Assembly (NCBI GenBank): GCA_947568835.1
Contig: OX387604.1
Coordinates: 16,211,076-16,275,075, forward strand
DNA: 64,000 nucleotides
From: Protonemura montana
Taxonomy: Eukaryota; Arthropoda; Insecta; Plecoptera; Nemouridae
Direction: 5' to 3'
The position numbers and the translations under genes are program-made. Positions 8,261 through 64,000 of this stretch are shown in pieces. The notes under the pieces were generated by a model. That model worked only from the letters and a program-made list of their open reading frames with translations, searched no databases and was not told the DNA's origin. Every line of letters begins with the position of its first letter. Positions within the stretch are counted from its first letter, which is position 1.

Positions 8261-11200
8261 ATGAAGTTTTTCATCGGCATCTTGCTAGTGGCAGCGGCGG
8301 CTGTTGCGGTGGACCCCGAGCTGGAGTCTCATCAGGTTGAAACTGAAGAAAGCAAAGGCAAAGAATATCTTACTTTCATCAATGAAGAGTCTCGGAAGAG
8401 AGCTTCTATGGCTGCCCAGGCTGAGTGGGATTATGCTTCGAATATTACAGAAGAAAACCTATCGAAAAAGGTTATATTTTGGCTAAATCGTATCATTAAG
8501 TGGTCTATGATATTAACTGTAACTAAGGGTTGGTTCATTTTATTAGCTAAGCCTGAAAAAATGCGCCAAAAAAATTCTTTGACCATAATTTTTTTAATGT
8601 CAGCTCTGCCATTTCGTTGATAATTTGCATTAACCTTCAGAGAGTTACACGAGACGTTAAGTAGTACTTTGTGAAGCAAACGTGATCAAGTTACTAGTAA
8701 CCAAATTATTGTCTCATTCATTTTTTTTTACAGGGTTCGAATTATCAGTTATAAAATTTTCCAACATCGCTCAAAATGATTGATACTGATAGCACCTAAT
8801 TTTATGTTTTTTTCCCACAGCTGGCCCTTTCCCTTGAGTTATCGAAATTTCAAAAAAAGCAATGGCAAGAGACGATTAAATATCCATGGAAAAGTTACAA
8901 AGACCCCGATGTTCGTCGCCAGTTCAAAAAGTTTTCCGTTCTAGGGGTGTCTGCCCTTTCAGAAGATAAATATCAACAGGTTTGTAACGTCAATATAAGT
9001 AACTTATCATCTTGAAAGTCAGTGCATGCATGTAAACTCGATGCACACTCAAGATATACCTTTAAGATTTATAAGAGTTTATTTTAACTTTCCAGTATGA
9101 GAAGCTGACAAGCGACATGAGTGCTACTTACAGCAAAGCGACTATTTGTGATTTCAAGAACAACAAACAGTGCGATTTGCATCTTGAACCAGGTAAGCTA
9201 AAAACTTGCATCTGAAAAGAATCTTAAAACCACACACATACTTGTTATATTAAAAGAGAGTGTTTGTCTGTTCAGAGATCTCCAAGATCATGTCCACAAG
9301 TCGCAACCCCGCAGAGCTGAGCCACGCATGGGTGGAATGGAGGAAAGCATCTGGAGAGAAGCTACGTAATGACTGGCAGCATTACGTGGCCTTGAGCAAT
9401 GAGGCTGCGCTACTGAATAGTGAGTTTCTTACAAAACGGCATAGGGTACCAAAGGGCATAGGGTGCCAAAAGGTCGCTATTAACCAGTGTGCCCTTAGGG
9501 CGCTTTCGGCCCCACTAACATTATGAAAACAAACCCAAAGCCTATTCTGCTGAAGTTAAGTTACCAAAGAAGATAGATTGTAAAGTGTTCGAAAAATGTT
9601 CAATTTAAGGCTGAACATTGTAAGAGCAGAGGTAGAACATGAATTGTTTACAAAGTCAACGGAAATTAAAAATGGGTTGGTGAAACTTCAGAAAATCGAA
9701 CATGAAAATACTTCAAAAACGTTCTAAGGAATACTCCAGTTTGCAATCTTATTTGATACCGTGTATTTCTTCAGATCTGACTGACACTGCTGAGATTTGG
9801 TTGCAAGACTACGAGAGTGAAGATTTCCCGGCACAAGTTGACAAACTTTGGACGCAATTGAAGCCACTGTACACGCAATTGCATGCCTATGTACGACGCC
9901 GCTTGCGTGAAACTTACGGCAAAGAAGTTGTGTCGGAGAAAGGACCGTTGCCTGCACATTTGCTTGGTTGGTAAAATTTTTATGGCACAATTGAGTCCAG
10001 TAATGTTATAATGGATTGCAAATTGAGTGGGCGTAAGATCTTTGAGAACACAAGTCTAATTTTAAATCAATTTTAGGGATTTCTCTCCCTTTACTGGTAG
10101 CCCTTTCATCTACCCTACCTTCCCACCCCGCAGAGACTTTGAGCGATTCCCAAACTTAAATGAATTTGTTTTATCCAGCCAATATTTATGCAGCTGGTTA
10201 GTTCTCTGAATCTGATAGTTATACTGGTAGTTATATACACATAGTTAGACTTATATGTAATGTATCCAAGCAACAGAAATCGAACCAGAAAATTTATACC
10301 ACGATTACTTTTTTGTTTGATCTAAATTCGTGGGTTCTGATCTAATTTGTAGGCAACATGTGGGGGCAGTCCTGGAGTAACGTTTTTGATCTCTCTGTGC
10401 CGTATCCCGGTAAGGCATCGATTGATGTCACGGAAGAAATGAAAAAACAGGTGAAGCTTGATCAAATAATTAAAAAACAATGTTCACGTTATTTTTTTAA
10501 CGGATTATAATGTAACATGGGACTAATTTCATACTTAGGAATACACACCTCTCAAAATGTTCCAACTGTCAGAGAAATTCTTTACGTCACTGAATTTGAG
10601 CAAGATGACAGACTCATTCTGGACAAAATCGATCTTGGAAAAGCCTTCAGATGGACGTGATCTCGTTTGCCACGCCTCTGCTTGGGACTTCTATGATGGA
10701 CATGACTTCAGGTAATTAATTATCATTCCTGTAAGAAATAAAATGTTTATCAAAGCAACCATGTGGCCCGTAATGTAATTTAAATTGCATTTTACTCCCT
10801 CCACGGTGAAATGATTTGGCACGCATTTAGTGGAAAGTTGACACATTTTCCAACAAATTCAATTTTCCCACTAGGATCAAACAATGCACAACTATATCAC
10901 TGGAGCAACTTTCAGTAGCGCACCACGAAATGGGACATATACAATATTTCCAACAATACAAGGACCAGCCTAAAGTCTATCTGGAAGGAGCAAATCCAGG
11001 TATGATTATTATTTTTATCTAATTATTCCTCAGGATCAAACAGTGCACTACTATTTCCATGACCCAGCTTAAAACAGCACATCACGAAATGGGCCACATA
11101 CAATATTATTTGCAATACAAGGATCAACCAAAAGTATATAGGAGAGGTGCTAATCCTGGTAAGCCACATTTACTATTGTGCATAACCACTGAGTGTATAG

Positions 11201-12823
11201 CTAGTATCTCTGACCCCTGAACACCCCGATCTCTTTCAATTATTTTTAAACTAATTTTTATTTTTATAAGTTAAATCGCTAATATTTAAAATCTGCTTTC
11301 AGGCTTCCACGAGGCTGTCGGAGATGTGATGGCTCTATCGGTAGCAACTCCGAAACATCTCAAGAAAATTGGACTTCTTGATGAGAAATCTGTCGAAGAT
11401 CCTGAAGCAACTATCAACTTCCTATTCCTTCAAGGACTGGCAAAGATTGCTTTCCTTCCTTACGCTACTATGCTCGACCACTGGAGGTGGAATGTATTTA
11501 AGGGAAAGACTCCCAGCACTGATTACAACTGTGACTACTGGAAGCTCAGGTAAGATTAGACCGATGTTTTTATCCCACATTTTTGAATTTTTTAGTTTTT
11601 CGTTCGGCGCTTCCCCTACTTGACTGGTACGAAACCGTGATTTTTTTTTTTTAATAGCACAGCGAAATTACAAGATGAAACCATAAAACTTTGCCTCTTC
11701 CTAGAAAGTCAATGATTAAAAAATCTAGACAAACACATCCCAAACGATCACAGAGAGCATAATTATCTGACTTAACGCTATTTTCGAACTTATTCCAGCT
11801 AGGGTGGTGTGGTAGCATAACATCGGGTAACTTGAAAGCTTCTTTTTCTTCTAGACACGAATACCAAGGCGTTGAGGCTCCTGTCGATCGCACAGAAAAC
11901 GACTTCGATGCCGGCGGAAAGTATCACGTGATCGCTGATGTGCCTTATATCAGGTTAGACAGTCGAAATTTGAGCTACAGCTGATACCAAACGTAAAGAA
12001 CAAAATATATTTTCATAATAATTATCACTGTAAAACAAAAGCATTGTTTCTACAGATATTTCGTGAGCTTCGTTATTCAGTTCCAATTCCATCGCTCACT
12101 ATGCGCCGAGGCTGGCCAATTTGATCCGAAGAATCCGACGCTTAAACCTCTTCACGAATGTGACATTTACGAAAGCAAAGAAGCAGGAGCTCTTTTGAGG
12201 TAAAACTTTCACTTAATGATATGAATTCTTGGTCATGTGTTTGTTAAAAACACATGTAATCTTACAAATGACTATTTTTAGGAAGAACCACTATTAAAAA
12301 TGGTAAATCACACAGCCCTGTATGGTATTAAGATTCATTTTGAAGAGATACTGTGTGGTAGACCATTTCTATTAGTAGTTTAGTATTTGAAAATACTATA
12401 TTTTGGGCTTATAGAGATGTAGGCGCCGATTATTGCATGTCGTGTGTTTGGATCATACCATCCATGAGATCATACTGTCCATGAGATCTCATACCATCTA
12501 TGTACCCCACAGCAAAATGTTGCAAATGGGTTCGAGTAAACCCTGGCCAGACGCAATGGAAGTGGTCACGGGGCAACGCGAAATGGATGCCAGTGGACTG
12601 TTGGAATATTTCCGACCTCTCCAGGAATGGCTGGAGGCTGACAATGAAAAACACGGAGAGTTCATTGGATGGGAACAATCCCGAACCAGTAAGTAACACT
12701 TTAAACGTTAAATAAAAAATAAAAAAATACAATATTCTCATTTCAACTATTTATTATTTGTTTTCAGAGTGCGTGAAGAACAGTGCCGAATTAAAGATTC
12801 ATGCAACCAACAACGCATCATAA
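8261..12823 (+). CDS. Ance: Secreted single-domain angiotensin-converting enzyme (M2 peptidyl-dipeptidase), 13 coding exons
   Basis: This is a zinc dipeptidyl carboxypeptidase that trims C-terminal dipeptides from peptides outside the cell. Coding exons: 8261-8470, 8821-8979, 9096-9192, 9276-9419, 9775-9966, 10353-10450, 10539-10711, 10875-10999 (8a) or 11034-11158 (8b), 11303-11549, 11855-11953, 12056-12199, 12513-12688, 12768-12823. Every junction is GT-AG and in phase; the total is 1920 nt, 639 aa plus stop, usual for a one-domain insect ACE. Residues 1-17 are a signal peptide ([17 protein letters not shown]), and no C-terminal anchor follows, so it is secreted. Visible active-site residues: HEMGH at 375-379, third zinc ligand Glu403 in [14 protein letters not shown] with His345/Ala346, and GKYH...PYIRY with Lys504, His506, Tyr513, Arg515 and Tyr516. 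All match the catalytic and chloride-site residues I recall for ACE. The start is the only ATG before the signal peptide; TGTAG directly before it is a likely splice acceptor. An AATAAA lies at 12885-12890. Confidence 0.96.
10875..10999 (+). CDS. Ance: Ance alternative active-site exon 8a (C-domain-like pocket)
   Basis: The exon is 125 nt, follows CTAG at 10871-10874 and ends before GTATGA. It encodes the two zinc histidines and catalytic Glu ([15 protein letters not shown]), then VYLEGANP. At the positions matching tACE 376, 380, 391 and 403 it has Glu, Val, Phe and Glu. These are the residues I recall for the C-domain of mammalian somatic ACE. It is in frame between exons 7 and 9 (phases 2 and 1). 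Its reading frame and catalytic residues are intact, so it is not an obvious pseudo-exon. Confidence 0.93.
11000..11033 (+). promoter_or_regulatory. 34-nt spacer between exons 8a and 8b, too short to splice
   Basis: The spacer begins GTATGA, contains a CTAAT branch-point-like motif and ends TTCCTCAG, so it has all intron signals but only 34 nt. This is below the usual minimum for insect introns (about 45-50 nt, from general knowledge), so 8a should not be spliced directly to 8b. The arrangement would enforce a choice of one exon per transcript. Confidence 0.75.
11034..11158 (+). CDS. Ance: Ance alternative active-site exon 8b (N-domain-like pocket)
   Basis: This is a second 125-nt exon starting 34 nt after the end of exon 8a, between CCTCAG and GTAAGC. 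It encodes the same segment ([15 protein letters not shown], then VYRRGANP), with the same phases as 8a. It differs from 8a at 8 of 41 residues and at many synonymous sites, so the duplication is old and both copies are under purifying selection. At the positions matching tACE 376, 380, 391 and 403 it carries Thr, Thr, Tyr and Arg; the last three match the mammalian N-domain as I recall it. Use of 8b instead of 8a leaves the protein at 639 aa. Confidence 0.93.
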
Positions 12824-13363: not shown

Positions 13364-14103
13364 CGCTGTAGGATCTGTCGCCAGCAACCATGCGTGGTAA
13401 ATGACGCACATAAAACTGATTCAAGATTGGAAATAATCAACAGTCCGTGCTTGTTTAATAAAGCTAGACATATAAAGGTAAATGCTTGAACTTGAACTAC
13501 AGTTACCGAATTTGGACATCCATTTTGCAATGGTTTGTGGCAGTACTTCTTTTTTGAGCGGTGGTCACACAAGACTTTAAGATAAACATAAGTGCGCCAA
13601 TTTAATCTGTAAAATTTCCCAAGGGTCCTAAGTCTGGACCAAGACCGAAGAGATAAGATTTTAAAAATTAAAATGTAACGTTTTTATATCTGCAAACCGT
13701 GGTCTAGTCAACCTTTAAGTGGAATCATTCAACAAAAGAACATAATATTTTATTAAAAAGCTCACTCCTGATACTCCATTAATTTCTTTCATTTTCTTTT
13801 ACCGTTAGTCATAGTGGAACATTAATCCTTACATTAATCCTAACATTGTCAAATCGATTTAAAAAAGAAAAATCCCCTAGAATTTGTAGGACAGTTATTT
13901 TAAAATATTGCTTTACGGAAGACACTAACATAATTACGAAGCTACTCTTTCATTCGAGCTTTCGAAGATTCAAAAGCAGCGTAACTCAATAAATTATCAA
14001 AACTCCTCGATAAAAAAGGTTCTCAAGCATTAATTTCAAACGACATCCTCCAGTTCAGCACGAAAAATGATTAATACGTAACTAGTTAGCTTTGTGCAAG
14101 AAA

Positions 14104-14455
14104 CTGATCGGCTTAGCGTGTTGCAAACCCTGGTTCTCATGAGATCACTGAAGTTAAGCAACACTTCGCTGGAACAGGAATTAGATGGGCGACCATTATA
14201 CACATGACCAGTACTGTTTGGGAGAGAACTTGAGGGATGTAAGTTAGTACAGCAACTTCATTCGCCTTGCTTATCAACCTCTCGACAGCATTGATAAGTG
14301 GAGGAATTCTGTTTCTAAAGTTAGACGTCCGTCGACTTCGACAGGAGTGCCTCCCGACGCTACTTCATTTTAGGCTAGATAACGTTCATCATCATCTTTA
14401 TCATCACCCACTCATTAACTAATGTCATTAGACTCAGGGCGCTTTGTCAAAACAG
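14104..14455 (+). mobile_element. 5S-rRNA-derived SINE, near full length, degraded
   Basis: The head resembles the internal-promoter half of 5S rRNA: GGTTCTCATGAGATCACTGA, then AGTTAAGCAACACT, then TTAGATGGGCGACC. A family-specific body follows (GCTTATCAACCTCTCGACAG, CTTCGACAGGAGT) and a CATCATCATC...GTCAAAACAGT tail. The copy carries many substitutions and a small internal deletion, so it is old. It has no reading frame; such elements use pol III promoters and borrow LINE machinery. Confidence 0.85.
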
Positions 14456-22604: not shown

Positions 22605-22747
22605 AAACCGAACGGTTTGACGTGTTGAAAACACCAGTTCTCATGAGATCAATGAAGTTAAGCAACATTGCGCTGAGTCAGGTATTGGATGGGTGACCAT
22701 CAGACACATGACCAGTTCTGTTCGGGAGAGAGGTTGGAGGGATGAAA
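22605..22747 (+). mobile_element. 5S-derived SINE, head fragment
   Basis: The fragment starts with the family head AACCGAACGGTTTGACGTGT and runs through the 5S-like block (CAGTTCTCATGAGATCAATG, AGTTAAGCAACATTGCGCTGA, TTGGATGGGTGACC) to GGTTGGAGGGATGAAAG. The body and 3' tail are missing. This copy keeps the 5S-like A-box, intermediate element and C-box region well. Confidence 0.85.
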
Positions 22748-25080: not shown

Positions 25081-25166
25081 GTTTTAAATGGTGACAAAGT
25101 GATTTGAAGAAAACTGAAATATTTCTTAACGAAGGCTTTTCTAAAAGAAAAGTCGGACCATTGAAA

Positions 25167-28100: not shown

Positions 28101-31100
28101 AATTCTTTTCAAACTGAATGGTAATAGTGAGTTCATTGGAAAGCAATTAGCACTTACACTTGAACACATGATTCTTTGTATTTTTATCGTTTTAACTTCG
28201 AGTACATCGAAATTAGTCCCATTTCAGGCGTTAAGCAATGATTTTTCTTTTACAGCTTGCATCTCAACGAAACTATGCTTACTTTCAACGAGCAGTTTGG
28301 CAAATTCTACACAAAGTGAACCAAACTGACATTGCCAATGAAAGCTTGCGACGTCAGGTGAAGTTTTTGTCTGTGATAGGACCTGCTGCCCTTCCCCCAG
28401 ATCTTTTGGACAGGGTAAGTCTTTTCGAAACATCATCCCGTCTTTGTTTACTCTTCGTCATGGAAAATTCAATCAGAAGATTTAAGCCAAGGACATCGTA
28501 ATCAAATATTATTCACTGATTAAAAAAAAAAATCAGAATTACAAATTTTAAGCATTGGTTGTTCTGTAATTTTTATCAAGGAGACATTTCATTTTTATGT
28601 AAATATCTTGAAAAATCTATTGAATGTGTTGTATTTTTTCTTTTTTTGACTGTCATGTGCTTTTTTGTTACAGTATAACAAACTGATCGATGATATGTTG
28701 GCAATTTACAACAGTGCTACGATCTGCGCATATAACGAGCCTTTCAACTGCGGTCTACGCCTTGATCCTGGTAAGAAGCTACACATTCTTCATCGCAGCA
28801 TATCAAGATAAAGATCTACCATTCAGATTACTTACAATAGTGATGTGTTAAATCTCTCGAGCCAAAGGTCTGGGTAGTCAATAGTTTTGTTGAAAAGTTA
28901 TAGAAAAATGAATAGAATAGAATAAATATAAAAGTTTGATGCGTGCCAATAAGTCACAGAGCTGAAAATACAAAATTTTTTGTCCAATGTATTATTGGTC
29001 ATAATTACATATTTGATTTAAATATGTATGTGAATCTGCGAATGCTAGGGGTAGCATATGTTAGCTTGGATCGTTACGTGTAGTTCAGTAACTGAGTGAA
29101 TAGGAGGAATCACATCGCGCGGATAAACAGGAAACGAATGGAAGATAATTATTTTATCGGCGAAACGTGAGTCTAGAAACGCTAGAAACGAAACTCTAGA
29201 CTAGAAGCTTCTTCACTTACTATTGCAGTAATGGAATCCCAGTCACACCTTTAGCAATTTGAGAGATGGTCTCAGGCGTTGGTGAATGGGCGGGCAACAA
29301 TGATGAACCTAGCTTAGCTATGAAACCATTAAATACGTCCTGTCGAAGAGGTCCAAAGGTTCTCCAGCTTATCATCCCTTCCGAAGGACGGAACAACTCA
29401 AACAACAGAATTCCTTAACAAATCTATGCTGTCGAGAGGTTAATAAGCAAGGCTAGTGCAGTTGCTGTACTTGCTTTTATCTCTCTAACCTCTCTCCCGA
29501 ACAGAATTGATCATATGTACTATGGTCACCTATCCTTTATTTGTGGTGTTTAACGACGCACTGTTTTGACATCTGGCCATGCGGCACTGGTCAAATGGCG
29601 TCGGTGAATGAGTGGATGAGGAAGATGATGAACCTAACCTAGCCTAGAAGGGAGGCGGGGAAACCCGGTACCGGCACGTAGCCTACTCCTGTCGAACAGC
29701 ACCAAGGGGACCACCGGCTTAACGTCCCTTCCGCAGGACAGTACAACTCGAACAGCAGGATTCCTCCACAAATCCATGCTGTCGAGAGGTTGATAAGCAA
29801 AGCGAACGAAGTTGCTGTACTACCTTTTATCCCTCCAACCTCCCTCCCGAACAGAACTGGTCATGTGTATGATGGTCACCCATGCAATACCTGACTCAGC
29901 GCAGTGTTGCTTAACTTCGTTGATCTAACGAGAACTGGTGTTTCCAACATGCCAAGCCGTTCGGTATCTTACGAGAACCATTGTTACCAACAAGCCGAAC
30001 CATTCGGTCGATCTCAAATTTTCCTGTTCCTAATTGGCATGCTGTTATGTTCCAGAGTTGACACTAATTATGGCAAGGAGTCGAGACTGGGACGAGCTGC
30101 AACATGTGTGGCTGGAATGGCGAAGGAAGAGTGGACAGCAAATTCGGGATCTCTACGAGCAGTTGGTTGACGTCAGCAATCATGCAGCACAGCTTAATAG
30201 TACGAGTCACGTGATCTTTACTCGATCTTATTGAATTTTTTGTCAGGAACGTCAATTTATTTTAGTACAAAATCTTGGGCAGAATCGAATTCGAAAAAAT
30301 GTGTGGGTTTTCTTTTCATATACAGCTATTTCACCATTATTGGAGAAAAATAAAAATAAATGCTAGAACCATACCAAGGAAAATGTTGTTAATTAATAAA
30401 AAATTGTGTCAACTAGATAAAAACCGACAAGTGTACAAAAAAAAACCCCTGATATATTTTTCTTTTCCAGAAAGGGTCTAAGAACGGCCTTTTAGCTTAA
30501 ACAGATACCAAATTTGGAGATTTTTTTTCACCGAATATTCCAGATGTTTTTCATATTTACGATCATGATATATATTCTGTCAAAAATCGAACTGAAAGGC
30601 GCTGAGGTCACTTATTGTTGGATGTAATTATTGATTTTGATTTTGTTCACAGATCTTCGCGATTTTGCTGAGTACTGGATGTTTCCCTACGAGTCTGTCA
30701 GGTTTAGATTTGACATGGAAGATGTTTGGGAGCAAGTACGACCACTCTACGAGCAGATGCATGCATACGTGCGAAGAAAGTTGCGAGATCTGTATGGACC
30801 AGAAAAGATCAATCGTCAGGCACCTTTACCAGCACACATTCTTGGTACGCAATTGAAGACGTAACAGTGAAATTATGAAAATGCACATTACAAATTTTAA
30901 ATATTGAGTAACTTTTTTTTTTTAATAACTTGAATTCAGGTATTGATTAGTTCTATAAAATGAGATACTGTTTTGACAACTTAACCTATCAACGGAGTCG
31001 TAATTAAGTATGATAATTTTCCAGGAAATATGTGGGGCCAGTCATGGAGTAACATTCTGGATATTACTATTCCTTATCCCGGTAAAAACTTCTTAGATGT

Positions 31101-34100: not shown

Positions 34101-37100
34101 ACTGACTCACGAAGAAAAATCGGAGGAAGTAAATACAAATGTTACTTTTGTTTCATTTATTTGCACACTTCTAAAAAACATATAAAACAGATTTAATTTC
34201 ATAACATGGTATAGTTGGTATAAAAAAGATGTCAGATACAAATTACAAGACAAGACTAGGATGTAGAGAAATGATAATGGGAATGATATAATATTTCTGC
34301 CCATTCTCCGTCCAATGCGATGCGGCAACTGGTCTCCCAGTTTTTATTCAATCAACTTTTAAACATAATTTATTCTCATTCGCCCAAATATACTTTCGAT
34401 CAAGACTTTCAACATTTGAACATGACCGGAACAGAGAATCGGTTAGACATTACATAATCTTTAATGGTGATAGCCGTATGATGAGCCTCCTCCATACGAG
34501 GAACCACCTCCATACGAGGAGCCACCTCCATAATCCCCGAACCCACCATCGCTATGATGGTGCTCGTGGACCTTCACGGGAATGTGGACGGGTACCTTGA
34601 CGGGGTAGGGGATCTCCTTTTCGACTGGGTAGTGGACGATCTTCTCAACGGGCACCTTGACAGGGTAGGGGATCAGCTTCTCGACTGGGTAGGGCACTTG
34701 CTTCTCCACGTGGACGGGGTATGGCTTGGGCACATGAACAGGGTACGGCCTATCGAAAGGAACCTTCACTGGATACGGAACTTCTTTCTCAACTGGGTAA
34801 GGCACCAATTTCTCAACTGGGTACGGGACCTTCTTCTCGACATGAACGGGGTATGGCTTGTCAACATGAACGGGATAGGGGCGATCGACGGGCACCTTGA
34901 CGGGATAAGGGATCTCCTTCTCGACGGGGTAAGGCACGGGTCGGTCCACCTTCACGGGGTATGGCTTCTCCACATGGACGGGGTATGGACGGTCAACGGG
35001 CACCTTCACATGTACGGGGTATGGGCGATCGACATGGACCGCAACAGGTACCTTCACGTGCACGGGGTAGGGCTGAGCGACAGGGACCTTCACGTGAACG
35101 GGGTAGGGCGCTGGGACATTCTTGGTAACCACGACTGTGTACGGTTTGGGCACTTCAACCTTGTACGGTTGGGGCACGGGGACCTTCACGTGAACGGGAT
35201 AGGGGACGTGTTTCTCGACGGTGTAAGGGACGTTGTAGGGACGGTCGACGGGGACCTTCACTTCATAAGGCACGTGCTTCTCTACGGTGTAAGGAACTGG
35301 TTTGTCCACGTGAACGTGGTAAGGGACGGGCCTGTCAACGGGGACCTTCACTGGGTAGGGAACTTCTTTCTCAACTGGGTAGGGCACTTCTTTGTGGATG
35401 GGCACATGGACTGGATAAGGATGAGGCACAGCAACCTTCTGGGTCACGTGAACGGTCTTCACATGATGATCATGGTGATCGTGACCACCTCCAAATCCGC
35501 CAAAATCTCCACCGAAACCGCCGCCAAGTCCACTGCCGTGGCCGTAATTGGAACCCCCGTAGTTCAGACCGCTGGAGTGGCTAAGCCCCCCGAAGCCGCC
35601 TCCGAAACTGCTGCCTCCAAAACTGCTGCCTCCAAAACCGCCTCCGTAGTGGCCGCCTCCGAAGCTAGAGTGTCCTCCGTAGCCAAGATCGAACAAGCCG
35701 CGCTTGTCTTGCTTCTTTTCGGGAAGAAGAGACTTTTCAGCTTTTGAAGACTCCTCGACTTTCACGTCGGCGACCTTCGTTTTCTTTTCCTCAGCCGAGG
35801 CAAGAATTGTGAACGCCAGGAAGGCGATACAAATCTGTTGGTGAAAATTTAATTAAATTAATTGGATGGTCACTGGATTACGTGTGTTCTAGCGTTGTAT
35901 TGTTCTGACAAATGAGACTCCTCTCAATTAGTGTTGCTAATTAGTCCAACTGGGGCAGAGGAATGGATCTTTTTTCTGGCGAAACAAATGCGATTTGCGT
36001 AGGATTTGTTTCTTGTTTTCCACTCGTTATCGGAAAATTTAGTGCGTTCTTTACAAAGTGATTTGTAGAAACGGAAAACCCTCGAAGGAAATGTTCCGAA
36101 CTGTGGTAAGTGCATTCGAGTTACATTGAAAATTTTTTTGAAGAATTTGCTTTCGCATACAAATTCAAACTAGTAAAAAAATTAATTGTGAGGAAAAAAC
36201 CAAAGAAATTATTTTGAATGATGGCGATTCATACAAATTAACTTTATACGACTTTTGTAGCTATAAAATCTTGAATAAAAAAACCTAAAGACAATACCAC
36301 ATAACCTGATTTTATATCAGACATTTCGAAAAAAAAAAATCTTTGACAGCCCACTAAAAATGGCATCAACTGCTCAACGCAAGAAATTTGGCGAAAGCTT
36401 TGTAAAAAATAAATTTTTGTTTCACTCAATACTATAATACTAATATCAAATATTCTTTCATAAAGCTACTTACCGAGATCCTCATGTCTAGGCTATGAAG
36501 TTGTTTCTAGACTTGATCACTTAAGACTGGATGCTTAATTCCAGTCGGCACACACTTTATATACTAATTCGACGGCAATTGGACTTTCGCTAACCATGAT
36601 AGTGCAAGCGGTGCGGCGCAGCACAGCGCTGCAGAGCCAACCAGCCAGTCCTAGCCAGTCCTGGTCGCACATATCCGTCCCAACCTCCGTTTCCTCGAGA
36701 ACACCAACTGTAACGGCGAGTGCAGCACGAAACGACATTCAAACTTTCAAATGTCGGTTTGTACCAAGTGTTTTTTTTTCAAATATTTTCATAAGACTTG
36801 CATTTATTTACGAGAAAGTAAATATAAACGCAATTGAAGTTCAAACCCTGCAAGATTCTTTTGAAACGGTTTATTATGGATTGATTGGCCGAGTTAGATC
36901 ATTAGTGTAGCATCTGATCTAGGTAGACGTCCGTCAATTAGCGAGCCGGATTTGCTTCCTCGTGAATGTAGCGATCTCATTTATTATTTTTAACACTGGT
37001 CAGGCGAAATAATTGAGGGTATTTGCATTATGTGATCACTGCCGACTCAGCATTCGCCTCCATTTCCGAATAAAAAAATCTACAAGGAATTCAAATAGAA

Positions 37101-40100
37101 TTTCCGATCTTTCACGTGCAAGGAGCGGTATTATGGGATGTATTTTGAATTCTTTTCGAAAGCAAATTATGTGCATCGCGTTTTTGAATAAATATACATA
37201 AAGATATTTTGTAAAAATAGTTGCTTATCTTATCTCAAATAAAAGCGGAATATTTCGTGAAAAGTAATAACAGTTAGCTAAGAATGCACGTCTTCGCAAT
37301 TTTAATTAACATCATGAAGAACATATTTCTTTCTTCAATTAGAACTGCTAATTACAAGAACAAGAGCCTAAAATTGGAAAACATCCACTGATAAACACGT
37401 TACTGCGAAATATCTACTCATTAATCAAAACTCATATCCTCCGGCTAACAATTATTTTATTGTACTTCTTCGAGTTTCAAATGAAACGATCATAATAATA
37501 TAATAAACAAACTCATAATATACATTTTTCTATTTCAATAGTTTATGGAAAAGAAAGATTCACTCACTCAAAAATAAATGAACGCTTAAAGGTGTGATTA
37601 TCTGTTTTCATGACGCAACTTAGGGGAAGTAAGCAGTCATTCGTTATTATGTATCTGAATAAGATTGAAATCAGATTGATGCAACTTCCACGGGCTAAGG
37701 TGTTGCTAAGGTGTGCAGTCTCTCAGGTGTTGCAGTCTACTCATCTCGTTTGTACTTTGCTACACTTCGCCTGCTAACAAGGCTAGATATGACGTAACTT
37801 TTGATCTCTACACGTTTTCTCGTCTTTCTAACGTTAGTAACACCAAATAAGCCTTGCAGCACAACCGTGAAAACTAAGCTATTTCCAATAATGCACAGTT
37901 TCTTTAGTTAAGATGTGCTATAAAATAATCTTGTGCATGAATGTGCGCCATGCTAGTCGCAAAAGACACGACGTCTTACCAATTACACGAGTCGGAATGG
38001 TAGAGTTAAGATGATAAAAACGAGCATGATTATTAATGAAGTGGAACATCAAGAATGAATTAATTGAACAGAGTCGCTAATGTCCTGTATAATAATTATG
38101 TAACGCAAAAAAAAAATATGTTCCAGGTTGGTTTATTATCTTGAATAATCTTAAGTTTCTCTTGTTCAAAAATTTGTCACGGTAACTTTTTTTGTTTTTG
38201 GGCACGTACATATTACATATGTTGTTGACAATCTATTTATTTCGATATTGAAATCATTTTACCAGCACAATTTTGATTGAAATGCGCCTTTCTTTGAGCT
38301 CATGCAACGAATAATGGTTTAATTAATTTGACATGTGATCTTAATTGGTAAACGAAAGCAAGGCTATTCTCATTTTAACACCAATAGATAGGTATGTGTT
38401 AAATCCCATCCGTCACTTCTTGACCGAACAGTTTATACGAGCTGAAATTAGCATAAAAACACGTATGAATCATAATCCATTCTGTCCAACGTTTGCAACA
38501 GGTGGAATTTCTTACAATGTTATAGACCAAAACAACTTAAGAAAAGCAATGAAAATACATTTTATTGAGAAAATTCGAGCGTGATCTTGAATATTTCGTT
38601 AGCAGTTGTTTCAGATAATTGTAACAGTTCAGTGACAATCATGTTTGTACGTTAGCAAGGAAAAAAACGCTGGACATTTTATAACGAGATATATAAAATA
38701 TGTAAATGCATGTACGAGAAAGGGAAAGCCCTCGTGCCTCATAGCTATATCCTGCGATTCAAGGATAAAGGATTTCAAGCTAAAGTTTGTTAAAGCTGTT
38801 CGTCAAACTAAGTTACATTAAAAATAACAATGTGCACGATTGAGCACCTCACCGAGCAAGTACCGATACATTCATGTGACTTCTTATTAATTGTTTATAA
38901 TCAGTTACCACAGTCTTAAAGATAGGTTTTATCGTTGGCGTACTCACATTTCAACCTTATCAATCTTCTGCTTATTAGCTAACACCATTGTAACATTGTA
39001 CGGATAAATAGTATTGTGAAATAACTCCCCATTGTTAAGAACATCCACGCTATTACCAAGATTGAAATAAGTCCTACGATTCTTTCGGTAAACTCAGGAA
39101 ATGAATATATTGTATAACACATCTGTAAGACCTAATTAAACTACAATAAAACTTGCTCAATTTCGTTCCAATTTTTAGCTCCAGCTGCATTGAAATAACG
39201 TCACCTAATTAAGTACTACGCCAAATTAGTATCAAACGCGTAGCTTATTTCTTCGACGGCATTTTAATGATCTACTTGCAATTTTCAACTTCTATGTTCT
39301 ATACCGAACGTTTTGTAATATGTTTAATCCTTCAAAAATAATTGCTCTAACATCAATAATATCCTGGGGCTGTTAAGCCTGAAAAGCGATTTACACTCGG
39401 TTAGATTGCAGTATACCTATTGGTTTCATAAACAGTTTTTTGTTCATAAAAATATTTCTAAGTCTATCTGTTCCTGAAAGATTTGACACGAAAGTAAAAT
39501 GCGCGCAGGCTCCATATGCAATGTGAAATCATTGTAAAAGCGCATTTTATTATTTCATTTTTATAATTTATGAATTCACGAAATCGGGCGAAAGGTTGAA
39601 AATCATAAAAAATAAATATGTGTGGGTTCATTTGGAAACTTAAGCGCAAACGAGGCATTCGTCACAAATAATTTGATTCGAATTTAATATTTCCGCAAAG
39701 GTAACCAAAACGTGCCTAATTCTATTTCTCATCTGTTAATTAAGGAGCTAGAAAATAACACAGATTATACTATTTTATGGATTTTTATTTGGCTTGCTGT
39801 TGAAACACATTACATATGACATTCTGATGTTACGAAGTATAGATAACAAATCGTATTAGGTACTGATCACAACATATATGGTTGGCCTACATAATCAACG
39901 ACCTCTGGCGACAACAATTTTCAGTTACAAAGATACATTACAAAAAATTAAATAAACATTTACAATATTATCATCCTTTTAATGGTATTCGTTATAGCCA
40001 TGACCATAGCCTCCCCCATAAGAGTCAAACCCTCCATCGTAGTGGTCGTCGTGGCTATGGTGAACCTTGACGGGCACGTGGACTGGGACCTTAACGGGGT

Positions 40101-41232
40101 AGGGGACGTGCCTCTCGACGGGGTAGGGCACATGTTTCTCCACAACAACCTTCACGGGGTAAGGTACGCGCCTCTCGACCGGGTAGGGGACTTTCCTCTC
40201 AACCGTCACGGGGTAGGGCTGGGGCACATGAACGGGATAAGGGCGATCGACGGGTACCCTAACGGGGTACGGAACCGGTTTCTCAACCGGGTAAGGCACA
40301 GGTCGCTCGACCGCATAAGGCACACGTCTCTCCACCGTCACGGGGTAAGGTCTGGGCACTTCGACGGGGTAGGGCCTGTCCACAGGGACCTTCACTGGAT
40401 AAGGCACGTGCTTTTCAACTGGGTAAGGCACGGGTCGGTCAACGTGAACGGGGTACGGCTTGGGAACATGGACGGGGTATGGCCTGTCAACGGGAACCTT
40501 AACTTCAACGGGATACGGCCTATCAACTGGAACTTCATAAGGTACTTTCACGTGGACGGGATACGGCTGAGGTACGGGGACCTTAACGTGAACGGGATAC
40601 GGTTGGGGAACGTACACCTTCTTCTCTACGTAGACGGGGTACGGCTTGTCAACATGAACGGGATAGGGTTGGGGTACATGGACTTTGACTTCGACTGGGT
40701 AGGGGACATTCTTGTAGACGGGAACGTGAACGGGAACAGGCCTGTCGACAGCTACCTTTACTGGGTATGGGATATTCTTCACAACTGGGTAAGGAACCTG
40801 CCTTTCTACATGGACGGGGTATGGGCGATCTACGGGTACCTTAACGGGGTAGGGCACGTGTTTCTCGACCGGGTAAGGGACGTGCTTCTCCACCGTCACA
40901 TGGACGGGGTACGGCTGTGGTACTGGAACTCCCACTTTGTGCGTTACGGTCTTCAGGGTGTGATGGTGGTGGTCATTGTGGACGTAAGTTCCGAGATCAG
41001 TGCCGTATCCGCCGTATCCGCCGTATCCTCCGAAGTCACCGTTGTACGAGCCATAAGAGCTACCCCCGTGGCCGTACCCGAGGCCTATGTCGAAGAGGCC
41101 GCGCTTGCCGGGTTTCTTGTCTTCGATTTTTGTCACCTCTGCTTTTTTCTCCTTCACCACTTCTCCGGCTAGGCAGACAGCCGCGAACGCCAAGACGGCG
41201 ATCGAGACCTAGAAAACGAAACGGTGGAAATG

Positions 41233-44200: not shown

Positions 44201-47200
44201 GGGAACTGATTTGACTAGCGCCGGCAAATACGTCATGCTTAATAAACAAATATGTTTTGAAGTTCCTAGCTTCAATGACGTCTAAAGCCCCGCAGCATTT
44301 GAATTAGCATACTTCAATTACAAAAATGGAGCCGTTATTATTGTTGATTGTATTGCATGTGACTCCATAAGTTAGCTTGTGGTTATTTTTGCATTCTTGC
44401 TGCAGCAAAATATCTATAATTGAATTATAATAACTCATAATATTGTGTACTTTTCAACTCACGCATGTGCTTTTTGCCTGGCAGGACTGAATGCTGCAGT
44501 TTCAGCTCAGGATTGCATTATTTGCGAGTGATTAATTTCTATGTAGGTTTTGCTACGAAATTCCAGCACCTTACTGTCACACATATCCTGACAAATGTAA
44601 GCCCAGCCTACATAAAGTTAATCTGTGTGACAATCGTTGGCAAGAAATCGTATTAGACATCATAAAAGAAATTATATGCTGTAACAAAACTGGCATATTG
44701 CGTGTAATAATATCTGAGCTCTTTTCGTCGCAAGGATGAGTCTCTCTGATTTGTGACCGAATTAAACAGTTTTCTAGAAGCGTATTGATCGACTAGCGGT
44801 GGATTTTGAGGCTTAAATTGAAACAGGTTAATCGATTCAGCAATCTGATGGGTTAATTATTTCTTTCTCCCGAGTCAAACAAAAGATGTCGCAATATTTT
44901 GAATATGAAACATATATAATGACTCATTCTGTAATTCATTCGCCTGCCTAGCTTGAGAGAAGATATTATTTTAAATCTCTGTCTACAAATTTGTTTCTCT
45001 GGCTCCTGAGGCAAAAGTGTCTACATGCGCTTTGATTTTGTTTCTTTTCTAACTGAATGGTCAGTTCACAAATTCTATCGTAACTTCCCCAAACACACTG
45101 CTCTCTATTTACCTTTTATAAAATATTTTATAACACATACAAATGCTTATGAAATCTGAACTCGAAATATGTTGGTCATGATGTATAGGTAGCTACACTC
45201 CAAAGATTCAGGCATGCATAACAAGGAATAAGTGAATTTCACAAACCCTATCTAATTCAAAACATGCATATCCTTATGGAATCTTATGGCAATCATTAAT
45301 GAAGGTATCACCATTATGTAGTATGCGTCAATGAAAAATGCGTTTGATATTGGTAGAAATGGGTGAATGGCGCACGACACCAAAGTCAGTCGTGCATGCG
45401 ATCAAAGGCTTTGCCGTTTGCCAATCTAGCAACTCCGTTTCAGCGCCCATGCCGGTGTTAATGCACATCCGATCACACGTTGTCGGTGTGAGTCTGAGAG
45501 ATAGGTACCTATATAGCAACCAGCGGCCGAAGTTTCACCTACGCTCGGGTAAGAGTGCGGAAATACGTCGTGCCTACAACACATTTTTTGCAATATATAT
45601 TTCTTAGCCAAATATATTTTGACTGCCCCGAAAGGGTTTAATAACTGTGTTTAGAAAAACGTACAGAAATACATATTTTCTTATCTGTTTCCGCTAAAAG
45701 GATGAGAAAGGAATAAGGCAATCGTGTACATTACAAATAAATACTACTATGTAATACATTGTAATAGGAGGTTTTATTTTTGGTATATCATTTACACAAA
45801 ATAATAAGAAACAGAGTAGAAAAATATAACTTAGAGCTTCAGTAGCAGCGACTTCTTTTCGGCTCACATATTGATCATAATAGATTGGTTGCAATTGTTC
45901 AAGAACTACACACCTGTATTACTTTAGTGGGAGCCAAGCCCGTAGCCTCCATAGCCTCCTCCATAGCCTCCTCCATTACCTCCTCCATAGCCTCCTCCAT
46001 AGCCACCTCCATAGCCTCCTCCGAAACCTCCTCCATGAGATTCCAGACCACCCTCATGATGGCCGTGGTGATGGTGAACCTTGACGGGCACGTGGACGGG
46101 GACCTTAACGGGGTAGGGGACGTGCCTCTCGACAGGGTAGGGCACATGTTTCTCCACAACAACCTTCACGGGGTAAGGTACGCGCTTCTCGACCGGGTAG
46201 GGGACTTTCCTCTCAACCGTCACGGGGTAGGGCTGGGGCACATGAACGGGATAAGGCCGATCGACGGGTACTTTAACGGGGTACGGAACCGGTTTCTCAA
46301 CCGGGTAAGGCACAGGTCGCTCGACCGCATAAGGCACACGTCTCTCCACCGTCACGGGGTAAGGTCTGGGCACTTCGACGGGGTAGGGCCTGTCCACAGG
46401 GACCTTCACTGGATAAGGCACGTGCTTTTCAACTGGGTAAGGCACGGGTCGGTCAACGTGAACGGGGTACGGCTTGGGAACATGGACGGGGTATGGCCTG
46501 TCAACGGGAACCTTAACTTCAACGGGATACGGCCTATCAACTGGAACTTCATAAGGTACTTTCACGTGAACGGGATACGGCTGAGGTACGGGGACCTTAA
46601 CGTGAACGGTATACGGTTGGGGAACGGCAACCTTCTTCTCTATGTAGACGGGGTACGGCTTCGGGACGTGGACTGGGTAGGGTTGGGGTACGGGGACCTT
46701 AACCTCGACCGGGTAGGGGACATTCTTGTAGACGGGAACGTGAACTGGAACAGGCCTGTCGACAGCTACCTTAACTGGGTATGGGATTTTCTTAATAACT
46801 GGGTAAGGAACTGGCCTTTCCACATGGACGGGGTAAGGGCGGTCTACGGGTACCTTAACGGGGTAGGGCACGTGTTTCTCGACCGGGTAAGGGACGTGCT
46901 TCTCCACTGTCACGTGGACGGGGTACGGCTGTGGTACTGGAACTCCCACTTTGTGCGTTACGGTCTTCAGGGTGTGATGGTGGTGGTCTTTATGGACGTA
47001 GGAGCCCAAATCAACTTCGTGACCTCCGTATCCTCCTCCATAGCCACCCTGGCTGATGACTCCTTGGCCGAATCCACCTAGGTTGCCGATTCCGCCTCCG
47101 TAGGAACCACCGTATCCGTAGCCCAGGTCGAAGATGCCTCTTTTGTCTTGTTTCTTATCATCTTGTGTGGATTCAACCTTGCTATCAGCAACTGTTGCCT

Positions 47201-50200
47201 TCACTCCTTCCGCTACTGGTTCGACTGCAGCCTTCTTCTCAGCCGATGCAGCCAATGCAAGGGCTAAGACGACGAGGGGGATCTGCAAAATTTGTTCACG
47301 CATTGTAGTCAAATTTTTACATTAACATTCATTTCCGGTAATTAAATTTTAATATGGGCCAAAACAAGTAAGTTAATCGCTTGTGCGTTCATGGTCAGAT
47401 TAAGTGTTCATTTTAGGAAGTTGTCAGTAGATCAATGTTATGTCTTCACTTATGCCCACTTTAATTTTATTTAAATTTTTTATTCAAGTTTAAAAGCAGT
47501 CTCGTATGAATTCATTGTCTGCTTTCATGACGAATAATCAAATTGCACAATTAATTGATTTCTTCGTGGTTCGGAAAACTGCTTTTTGACCGATTGAACT
47601 TCCTTTACACTTTTAATTTCAAACAAATCTTATTCTTGGCACTCCACTGGTTCTTCTTCTGTTCCAAGTAAAAACATTCGACTTACCGTAAACCTCATGC
47701 TCGATTGCTAATTGTTGGTTTATAACCAAGTCCTAAAGAAGACTTGATACTGAATATTGGTGTAGTTGGACTTTATTTATATAGCCCAGTCATTCTCCCT
47801 CAAGTGTATTCTACCTCTTGGAGGCGGTTGGACGTGTCGGTGGAGGTGGATCGGCGGCGGCGGCGACGGCGGCGTCCAATCTTCGTTCACTTTCGCTTAT
47901 CTAAGACGTCTTGGTCTAAACGACAAACCCACCCAGTCTACTGTCATATCCTCTCGTGTTAACTCATATGAAAATTAGGCCTGCAGTGTAATAAAAATAG
48001 CTCTCTTATGAAAGCATTCCGAGTATATACAATGTCCACAATCGAGAAAGTTCCTCTTGAAGCAATATAATTAATGAACGTTGTTTTCTTTTATTTTGCT
48101 TATTTTTCTTGAAAACTTTTGTTTTTATGTCGTAATAATCAAGTTACAGGAAGCTTAATTTAAACGAACCGTAACAACCGGAACTTGTTTAATTTGGAGT
48201 GACCGTCATTATGTAAGGAAGGTGGGCTCCTTTGATTAGAGTGTTATAGCGATGTGCATGCCCCACTGCCTGAAGAGACCCGGGTGGCCAGGGTGCCTGC
48301 ACGCAAACCAGTTCAACGGTAGACACCGACGAATGCATTTGTGTAATCTCGACTTGTAGAGCAGGCTTAAAGTGCAATAGGTATCCGCATTGACTAGATC
48401 GTGAGATAATAAATCGTTCGTCGCTATGCAATATCACTGCCCGAAGTACTGCAACGCAATCGAAATTTCTCGCAATCTTGATTGATCATCAATGATCATT
48501 GGAAAGCCATCTAACGATCAACACGTTTAAACTATACGATCGACATCTTAAAATCAATGCATTCTTGTCAATAGAGATTCGAAGAATTTTTTTCACATTC
48601 AATCCGTTAATTTATGTTAAAGAAAAGTGATGAAAGAAAGTGGTTCCCAATCATCCTATGTAATCCAGTTTCCGGCTATGTGCATTTCGTTTTGTGAATG
48701 TGTTTCTGTTTCCCGTCGCTTAACATCGAAGACAGTGATCTTGTTGGTCTGGTTTTCACTTTCAGGCTAATATTCATCGTCTGCGTTTAGAACGAGTCCA
48801 TTACACCAACTTTGTATTACTATTTCAGGCCCCTCAGGCCCCAGCATTGGGCTGCATCGCCCAATTGCTGAAATTCAATTAAAAGCTCCCAGCGACCCAG
48901 CTCTTCCGTTAAGAACCTGTCTAACTGCTCTCCTCATCAGTTAGGTAATAAGAACCGTATTACACCTTTGCTGGCGCTTATGAGAACGAAGCATTCGAAA
49001 ACCGTGAGGACGTACAGCATTCTTTCTTGGTCGTGAATCTGTCAAGCGAAATGTATTTTCACTCAATATGGGCAATCTGGATCATTAATCGCAAAAGCTA
49101 AGAAGAGCCGAAGCATCAATAAAAATGTGTCGTTTACCAATTAAGTATTTTTGGGATAATTATACGCATCGATGCCAAATTTTTTCTAGTAATATCTAGA
49201 ATGTCTTTGACATAATAGTTTGGAAAGGCTGGATTGATTGCCAATTTACTCTGGGTACACCATAGAAAACGTATATAATTATAAGTCATTTCTTTTCACT
49301 GTTTACATCGTATATCTTTTAGATCTGAACTTGAGTCATAATTAATCGGTTTATAAATAAAACAATAATAATAGAATAATTGCTCAATTTCTGAATTATG
49401 CCAACAATAGTGATTAAATAAACGTTTACTTTGTTATGCAATACAATTGCTAATAAACACTACTCATCTTCTAGACAGAACTCTTGAATACCTACTATAA
49501 AATAAAACGTAATGAACTTGATTTTTATAAACCAATGACCTGACTGGATAACGGCGAGAAAGTTCCATAAACTTAGTCGAAAAGATGAAAATACTTGCCG
49601 TATAAATCGTTCGAACTTTATGTCATTGTTAGTTCGTTTTTTTTCGCGAGTCGTCCAGCAGCCATAACATCACGAAAAGTTAGTGAAACTGGTTCTTAAA
49701 ATGGCAAATTTTCAGTTTTTTATTTAAATCCACTAGATTATTTAAATACATTTAAAAATTTTCGCCCCAGCAGTTCTGTTTATAGTTCATAAAATTGGAT
49801 GCCTCCGGTTATAATATGTGGATTTTGAGCTGCCAAAGGGCATGGACATCAATTTGATTTTACTCGGTTACGTTGGATTGAGAATATGCGGCACCTCTTT
49901 ACAAGAAATGTAAAACTGATCCAGTTTTTAGCTTCATATTTAAAAAATAACATATTTAAGAACACTTATTGCTAAATAAGGAGGAAATACTGAAATAAAA
50001 TGTTTTATCTGCCGAAGAGAGATGTTAAGTAAAATCAGTAAAACTTCGTAATCATCAAAATAAATAAAAATATTTTCTGTTGTACAGAAAATAGTCTGGT
50101 TTTGCTAAGTAGTTTTACACAGCACAGTGTTACAGTAATATTTAAGACGAACGTTTTCCCTTTACTACCATTTCCTATTCAAAACAATCGCATTATCTAT

Positions 50201-63110: not shown

Positions 63111-63126
63111 TAACCAGCTATTCGTT

Positions 63127-64000
63127 GACAGTGCTTAGGTCATGTCTCCAGGTGTCACAGGTTCCTAAGTCAGTACCAGTGCTTAGGTCGCGTCTCCAGG
63201 TGTCCCAGGTTCCTAGGTCAGTACCAGTGCTTAGGTCGCGTCTCTCGTCGTCCCAGGCTCCTAGGTCACTACCAGTGCTTAGGTCGCGTCTCCAGGTGTC
63301 CCAGGTTTCTAGGTCAGTACCAGTGCTTAGGTCGCGTCTCTCGTCGTCCCAGGCTCCTAGGTCAGTACTAGTGCTTAGGTCGCGTCTCCAGGTGTCCCAG
63401 GTTTCTAGGTCAGTACCAGTGCTTAGGTCGCGTCTCTCGTCGTCCCAGGCTCCTAGGACAGTACCAGTGCTTAGGTCGCGTCGCCAGGTGTCCGAGGTTC
63501 CTAGGTCAGTACTAGTGCTTAGGTCGCGTTGCCAGGTGTCCCAGGTTCCTAGGTCAGTACCAGTGCTTAGGTCGCGTTGCCAGGTGTCCCAGGTTCCTAG
63601 GTCAGTACTAGTGCTTAGGTCGCGTTGCCAGGTGTCCCAGGTTCCTAGGTCAGTACCAGTGCTTAGGTCGCGTCTCCAGGTGTCCCAGGTTCCTAGGTCA
63701 GTACTAGTGCTTAGGTCGCGTTGCCAGGTGTCCCAGGTTCCTAGGTCAGTACCAGTGCTTAGGTCGCGTCGCCAGGTGTCCCAGGTTCCTAGGTCAGTAC
63801 CAGTGCTTAGGTCGCGTTGCCAGGTGTCCCAGGTTCCTAGGTCAGTACCAGTGCTTAGGTCGCGTCTCCAGGTGTCCCAGGTTCCTAGGTCAGTACTAGT
63901 GCTTAGGTCGCGTTGCAAGGTGTCCCAGGTTCCTAGGTCAGTACTAGTGCTTAGGTCGCGTCGCCAGGTGTCCCAGGTTCTTAGGTCAGTACCAGTGCTT
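63127..64000. repeat. 48-bp minisatellite running off the right edge
   Basis: About 18 units of 48 bp are present. Each contains GCTTAGGTCGCGT, then CCAGGTGTCCCAGG, then TTCCTAGGTCAGTACCAGT. Two unit types occur, one with CTCCAGGTGTC and one with CTCTCGTCGTC; they alternate between about 63230 and 63475, giving a 96-bp higher-order unit. Since 48 is a multiple of three, one minus-strand frame stays open throughout (16-residue period RDLSTGTDLGTWDTWR). There is no ATG start, signal peptide or flanking exon, so I read it as a satellite, not a gene. Confidence 0.85.

Follow-up and report, generated by a model that had tools for sequence, protein, structure and literature searches.

Tandem catalytic exons in a stonefly ACE gene exchange substrate-pocket residues and are probably spliced as mutually exclusive alternatives

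Can a single ACE gene make two enzymes by exchanging the exon that carries its active site? The question is raised by a 64,000-nucleotide stretch of the genome of the stonefly Protonemura montana (assembly GCA_947568835.1, contig OX387604.1, positions 16,211,076 to 16,275,075; hereafter the window), in which an ACE gene holds the exon encoding HHEMGH twice in a row. We built the gene model by hand from splice signals and translated it (Table 1), which gave 14 exons, with the two versions of exon 8 counted separately, and a 639-residue protein that reads open with either 8a or 8b. Judged from this translation, the product is an ACE-type peptidase of the M2 family: the two protein forms score 855 and 863 bits against the Pfam profile PF01401 (Peptidase_M2; E-values of 3e-257 and 1.5e-259), and the alignment runs over profile positions 2-581 of 581, the extent of the whole domain that marks a member of this family. 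A six-frame search with the same profile matched 11 stretches of the gene, overlapping exons 2, 4-7, 8a, 8b and 9-12, and returned no match for exons 1, 3 and 13. By eye, the N-terminus is hydrophobic, a likely signal peptide, and the C-terminus shows no membrane helix. In a structure search, Drosophila AnCE was the top-scoring single-domain entry (744 bits). The zinc ligands and the catalytic Glu (H375, E376 and H379 in the numbering of the insect protein) are intact in both 8a and 8b, and the third zinc ligand, Glu at residue 403 of the insect protein (equivalent to E411), is supplied by the shared exon 9. Subsite positions below follow human testis ACE numbering.

Table 1. Coordinates of the ACE gene, its paired exon 8 and other features of the window
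Feature	Position	Strand	Remarks
ACE (M2 peptidase) gene, coding part	8261-12823	+	Hand-built model from splice signals, translated
Exon 2	8821-8979	+	Encodes Lys107, aligned to human C-domain Lys118 (pairwise alignment)
Exon 6	10353-10450	+	S2' subsite region; Gln281/Thr282/Ser284 equivalents
Exon 7	10539-10711	+	Upstream partner of 8a and of 8b
Intron before 8a, 163 nt	10712-10874	+	Branch-point-like TTGAC, A 33 nt before end
Exon 8a	10875-10999	+	C-domain-like: E376 S379 V380 F391 L402 E403 (human testis ACE numbering)
Intron between 8a and 8b, 34 nt	11000-11033	+	GT...AG; branch-point-like CTAAT; in-frame TAA if retained
Exon 8b	11034-11158	+	N-domain-like: T376 K379 T380 Y391 R402 R403 (human testis ACE numbering)
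Intron after 8b, 144 nt	11159-11302	+	Gene model
Exon 9	11303-11549	+	Downstream partner; starts with GFHEA containing third zinc ligand
Second ACE gene	about 30040-53443	+	Nine profile matches
Three related long open frames	34461-35765, 39979-41193, 45924-47312	-	Repeat units, Gly-rich ends
Three dispersed 5S rRNA-like copies	14103-14223, 22607-22727, 29845-29965	+, +, -	49.6-56.3 bits
Open frame near window edge	63118-63918	-	Tandem repeats

The preliminary description had reported a tandem pair of HHEMGH exons of exactly equal length, with identical splice phases, good splice sites, an intact motif and 8 differing residues out of 41, and the gene model and codon table bear this out throughout. 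Both copies are 125 nt long, begin with ag/G-ATC-AA, end in a phase-1 donor and sit in GT-AG context, and their translations are identical at 33 of 41 residues. The four junctions proposed for the pair (10711/10875, 10711/11034, 10999/11303 and 11158/11303) are likewise correct. At the nucleotide level, 33 of the 125 bases differ and 92 are identical, as against at most 52 matching bases in 2000 mononucleotide shuffles. Nei-Gojobori counts give 20 differences at 24.3 synonymous sites (pS 0.82) and 13 at 98.7 nonsynonymous sites (pN 0.13); the silent sites are saturated, for which reason we quote no dS value, and the protein is constrained, in keeping with the earlier claim of many silent changes and long retention by selection. 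The similarity of 8a and 8b is neither chance nor recent. This divergence contradicts an origin of the second copy in misassembly or in a duplication of very recent date, and the introns show by eye no homology beside the splice sites of the two copies, which also speaks against a recent event; we consider this explanation hardly credible.

The view that the copies are alternatives in splicing was supported when the possible transcripts were read out, and mutual exclusion was the only tested reading that leaves an intact protein. Because 8a and 8b share their start phase and both end in a phase-1 donor, each can be joined to exon 7 and to exon 9. Three other arrangements were tried and rejected: including both copies shifts the frame, skipping both does the same, and retaining the 34-nt intron keeps the frame but places a TAA after 8a. 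A full protein is therefore obtained only from one copy at a time. Clusters of mutually exclusive exons have been recognized by like length, compatible splice sites and reading frame, homology of adjacent internal exons, and the presence of one exon per transcript (PMC3228551). In the stonefly gene the lengths are 125 and 125 nt, the phases are the same with GT-AG borders and 639 open codons, and the two exons are homologous (33/41 identical residues), adjacent, and internal between exons 7 and 9. In predicted isoforms of the orthopteran Anabrus simplex, described below, each protein carries one exon 8 form.

As for how exclusion might be enforced, the spacer between the copies measures 34 nt, compared with 79-386 nt for the remaining introns of the gene, and the A of its branch-point-like CTAAT lies 11 nt from the intron end and about 22 nt from the donor. 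Introns and branch-point spacings this short are generally too small for the spliceosome, as in the classic cases of steric interference. We also looked for docking and selector pairing between the introns, and the best duplexes did not exceed those of shuffled sequences (z of -0.38, 1.30 and 0.29; 200 mononucleotide shuffles per comparison). Given the 34-nt spacer and the loss of frame, steric interference is the simplest mechanism. The 34-nt intron would be too short to be spliced, transcripts with both copies or neither would be removed owing to a frameshift or in-frame stop, and the choice between 8a and 8b would presumably be made by tissue or stage. We consider it probable that 8a and 8b are mutually exclusive and that the gene thereby yields two secreted single-domain ACE-type peptidases that share one zinc site and differ in their S2 and S1' pockets.

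What the exchange would alter can be read against a 2025 structural paper, whose Table 3 gives 11 subsite positions that separate AnCE, the human C-domain and the human N-domain (PMC12025037). Five of the listed positions fall in exon 8 (C/N: E376/D354, V379/S357, V380/T358, F391/Y369 and E403/R381), and 8a and 8b differ at all five, with E, S, V, F, E in 8a and T, K, T, Y, R in 8b. The 8a copy equals the human C-domain at four of these positions and 8b equals the human N-domain at three. The agreement is complete in S2, where Phe391/Glu403 in 8a against Tyr/Arg in 8b reproduces the human contrast of Phe391/Glu403 with Tyr369/Arg381. The S1' residues are Glu/Ser/Val in 8a and Thr/Lys/Thr in 8b, compared with Glu376/Val379/Val380 in the human C-domain and Asp354/Ser357/Thr358 in the N-domain; here position 380 fits the human pattern in both forms, 376 in 8a only and 379 in neither, Ser of 8a being N-like and Lys of 8b like neither human domain. 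In AnCE, Arg386 is reported to reach a P2-side group through a water (PMC12025037), and at the corresponding position 402 (counted back from Thr387, which equals Glu403) 8a has Leu and 8b has Arg.

To gauge how unusual this is, we used natural sequences as a control. Three protein searches, with the best 120 rows taken from each, gave 245 different proteins, from which 238 distinct exon 8 sequences were compared in all pairs. Among the 1566 natural pairs with 7-9 differences, all five positions were changed in 3, four in 186 and three in 431, and 19% of the pairs showed a charge reversal at 403. The pairs are not independent, so 3 of 1566 serves as a guide and not as a P value. A random draw of 8 from 41 positions would strike all five with a probability of 7.5e-5, a figure that ignores the higher variability of these sites. 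The predicted amino-acid changes are thus concentrated at known subsite positions. The earlier suggestion that one gene could make two enzymes stands in this comparison, and it can be sharpened to two substrate pockets, because the substitutions are not scattered and strike all five listed positions of the exon.

The likely consequence of such an exchange has been approached from the human side. Replacing Tyr369/Arg381 of the human N-domain by Phe/Glu lowered the binding of the N-selective inhibitor 33RE 250-fold, and the single swaps Y369F and R381E brought losses of 36-fold and 8-fold (PMC3875237). At these two positions, going from 8b to 8a makes the same double swap. The C-domain preference of the inhibitor RXPA380 has been put down to hydrophobic S1 and S2 subsites together with a contact to Phe391 (PMC5947662). 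A Glu403-Lys118 bridge is reported to reduce chloride affinity, and E403R to increase it (PMC3894356). In a pairwise alignment, Lys118 of the human C-domain falls on Lys107 of the window protein. On the strength of the human swap, the RXPA380 and chloride data and this alignment, we predict C-like behavior for 8a and N-like behavior for 8b. The S2 pocket of the 8a enzyme, similar to that of human C-domain ACE, would be hydrophobic and contain a single acidic residue (Phe391, Leu402, Glu403); this enzyme could form the Glu403-Lys118 salt bridge (Glu395-Lys107 in the window protein) and would be expected to require more chloride. The S2 pocket of the 8b enzyme, similar to that of human N-domain ACE, would be polar and contain two basic residues (Tyr391, Arg402, Arg403); this form would favor acidic P2 residues and bind chloride tightly. 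These predictions of chloride dependence and specificity are carried over from human and fly ACE. Against them, Arg381 has been judged to influence inhibitor binding only weakly by direct contact, with a possible action on cleft closure (PMC11880972).

Is the arrangement confined to this stonefly? The preliminary description knew of no insect ACE with it and proposed a search in other species. That search revealed paired exon 8 in predicted isoforms of Anabrus simplex and in gene models of Gryllus and Timema, so the arrangement is not unique and predicted isoforms already stand in public protein databases. Between the Anabrus isoforms X1 and X2 there are 12 differing residues, every one of them inside exon 8, with F391/E403 in one and Y391/R403 in the other; among 52 close pairs in the 245 retrieved proteins, only these two have all their differences in this exon. 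The Gryllus bimaculatus model contains both copies, with Glu403 upstream, Arg403 downstream and Phe391 in both. The Timema californicum model also contains both, with Phe391 in an upstream copy that ends before 403 and Tyr391/Arg403 downstream, and the downstream type appears in rows of T. cristinae, T. tahoe and T. genevievae. Automatic gene models that fuse the two copies are the source of the Gryllus and Timema pairs. Single rows of Cryptotermes, Zootermopsis, Bacillus, Schistocerca and Blattella are of the Glu403 type, and exon 8 of Periplaneta X1 has Arg at 403; the rows of Periplaneta, Schistocerca and Cryptotermes are cluster representatives. Isoform X2 of the thrips Frankliniella (row P0038) is of the Tyr391/Arg403 type, and its exon 8 is the closest to that of Anabrus X2 among 15 compared rows (34/41); on these sequences, thrips may share the paired exon.

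Of the five listed subsite positions, four are changed in Anabrus (12 differences) and three in Gryllus (8 differences); in Timema, two of the four covered are changed (5 differences). As far as these predicted sequences go, the enrichment is weaker in all three than in the window gene. The lack of a clear enrichment in the Gryllus and Timema pairs would suit a different explanation, in which 8a and 8b are indeed alternatives but their enzymes are equivalent, the pair being kept for regulation (tissue splice control or tuning based on NMD) and the changes falling at variable sites. Positions 376, 379, 391 and 403 do vary across the 238 natural exon 8 sequences, and the regions swapped by tandem exons in human proteins tend to avoid small-ligand sites (PMC9741552). 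Equivalent enzymes are nevertheless hard to reconcile with the rarity of natural pairs of equal divergence that alter all five positions, dependent as those pairs are, with the recurrence of Phe/Glu against Tyr/Arg in Anabrus and of Glu against Arg in Gryllus, and with the 250-fold shift in inhibitor binding that the same swap caused in the human N-domain (PMC3875237). We therefore regard equivalence as unlikely.

The same natural exons bear on a further rival, in which only one copy makes the enzyme and the other, most probably 8a, is decaying or serves as a poison exon. Some residues of 8a are rare: Leu402 occurs in 0 of the 238 sequences, Gln392 in 6 and Val380 in 13. Yet in 8a the splice sites and the frame are preserved, as are the zinc ligands and the catalytic Glu, and the two copies combine a low pN with a saturated pS. 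An upstream copy of the Glu403 type is also present in the Gryllus bimaculatus model, and the Glu403 type recurs in the five genera with single rows named above. Decay of 8a is, on this evidence, very unlikely, and two functional, mutually exclusive exons remain our preferred explanation.

Exon 8 may not be the only interchangeable part of these genes. The 16 residues that separate Anabrus X1 from X3 all lie where the proteins align with exon 6, and in X3 Ser replaces Gln at the Gln281 position of the S2' subsite. By eye, the models of T. tahoe and T. cristinae (Timema rows P0036 and P0206) appear to contain two fused exon 6 copies. A tblastn search of the window found no second exon 6 copy in its ACE gene. 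Tentatively, and at somewhat less than even chances, we propose that polyneopteran ACE genes carry an old splicing code, with an interchangeable exon 8, bearing the S1' and S2 pockets and the zinc helix, across the group and also an interchangeable exon 6, bearing the S2' pocket, in Orthoptera and Phasmatodea, giving up to four pocket combinations per gene. If this is true, exon duplication here parallels the vertebrate solution of placing two ACE domains in one chain.

The history of the pair is harder to read than its present form. In an ACE tree made by a quick method without bootstrap, the window gene grouped with nine polyneopteran rows (SH-aLRT 97); two Gryllus longicercus rows fell outside this ten-row group, and the placement is for that reason only moderate. 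Exon 8 could have been duplicated separately in the stonefly lineage and in Orthoptera/Phasmatodea, which would make the contrast of Phe/Glu with Tyr/Arg a parallel one. The two stonefly copies are nearest each other (33/41) and sisters in a tree of the 41 exon columns, at an unsupported 71/36, and in that tree neither Arg-type nor Glu-type rows form clades. Against this, the best tree does not unite the two Anabrus forms as sisters (constrained together, p-AU 0.089), neither a single Arg-type clade (p-AU 0.168) nor a single Glu-type clade (p-AU 0.354) is rejected, and the order of Glu upstream and Arg downstream is common to the window gene and Gryllus; gene conversion between copies 34 nt apart could equally make 8a and 8b alike. 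We think separate duplication possible, though we would not put it at even odds. It is compatible with mutually exclusive exons that give two enzymes.

Among the matches listed for the stonefly genome, the pair belongs to one gene. Scanning the 258-Mb assembly with PF01401 gave at least 50 exon matches, which grouped into six ACE genes (with 11, 9, 7, 7, 7 and 8 matches) and one lone fragment. Profile positions 330-373 occurred twice in tandem solely in the window gene of Table 1, and 7 matches from another scan agree; neither tblastn of the window nor the assembly scan, with its at least 50 matches, found a duplicated exon 8 in the ACE paralogues. The second ACE gene of the window has an exon-6-like stretch at 31027 and a single exon-8-like stretch at 32346, and an open frame at 25104, which has no Pfam match, may be its first exon. 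Three related long open frames lie antisense between the matches of this second gene, perhaps in one of its introns; they have no Pfam family above the cut-off and could encode cuticle or structural proteins. Elsewhere in the window, which has a GC content of about 37%, the three 5S rRNA-like copies could be dispersed 5S genes or the heads of SINEs derived from 5S. The open frame near the window edge is made of tandem repeats around DLSTGTDLGTWDTWRR, and its one Pfam match, just under the cut-off (24.7 against 27 bits), is probably due to chance.

Were both forms expressed, they would provide a test of how the charge of the pocket governs the choice of peptide and the need for chloride when the rest of the protein is the same, and a pointer to the insect peptides that need each form. 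Work on a single isoform of insect ACE, including studies of ACE inhibitors as insecticides (PMC5366949), may see half of the activity. The difference between 8a and 8b includes the same S2 double substitution that was once engineered to explain the differences between the domains of human ACE (PMC3875237).

Several known systems invite comparison. To our knowledge, catalytic motifs are seldom found in alternative exons. The catalytic Arg of human KHK is another catalytic residue placed in an alternative exon (PMC9741552), and among the matches listed in a search of open-licence papers we found no description of alternative exons in ACE or in HEXXH peptidases; an alternative exon that combines HEXXH with five changed listed pocket residues would stand out. 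In C. elegans and other users of rhodoquinone, the mutually exclusive exons 6a and 6e of COQ-2 switch the quinone that is made (PMC8659336, PMC7434440). As in the ACE gene, tandem exons swap a few active-site residues, which in COQ-2 changes the substrate of the enzyme, and the same residues are reported to recur in annelids and molluscs (PMC8659336, PMC7434440). COQ-2 differs in being a prenyltransferase in which two residues are decisive and whose function has been proved genetically, whereas 8a and 8b belong to a zinc peptidase, include HEXXH and change five listed pocket residues, with a putative effect on function.

Drosophila AnCE resembles the window gene as a single-domain M2 peptidase, for which many structures have been solved, and we know of no duplicated catalytic exon in it. 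Its S2 positions are Phe375 and Thr387 (PMC12025037), unlike both the Phe/Glu of 8a and the Tyr/Arg of 8b. The closest likeness among insects is Anabrus simplex (rows P0016-P0018, X1, X2 and X3), in which X1 and X2 differ in exon 8 alone and with the same contrast; unlike the stonefly gene, it also shows alternative forms of exon 6 (X3), and it consists of predicted isoforms only. The N- and C-domains of vertebrate somatic ACE match 8b and 8a in family, in zinc site, in Tyr369/Arg381 against Phe391/Glu403 and in Thr358 against Val380, although 8a and 8b do not repeat the human contrast at 379. The vertebrate enzyme holds its two domains in one chain, whereas the stonefly gene has one domain, of which a duplicated exon would supply two versions.
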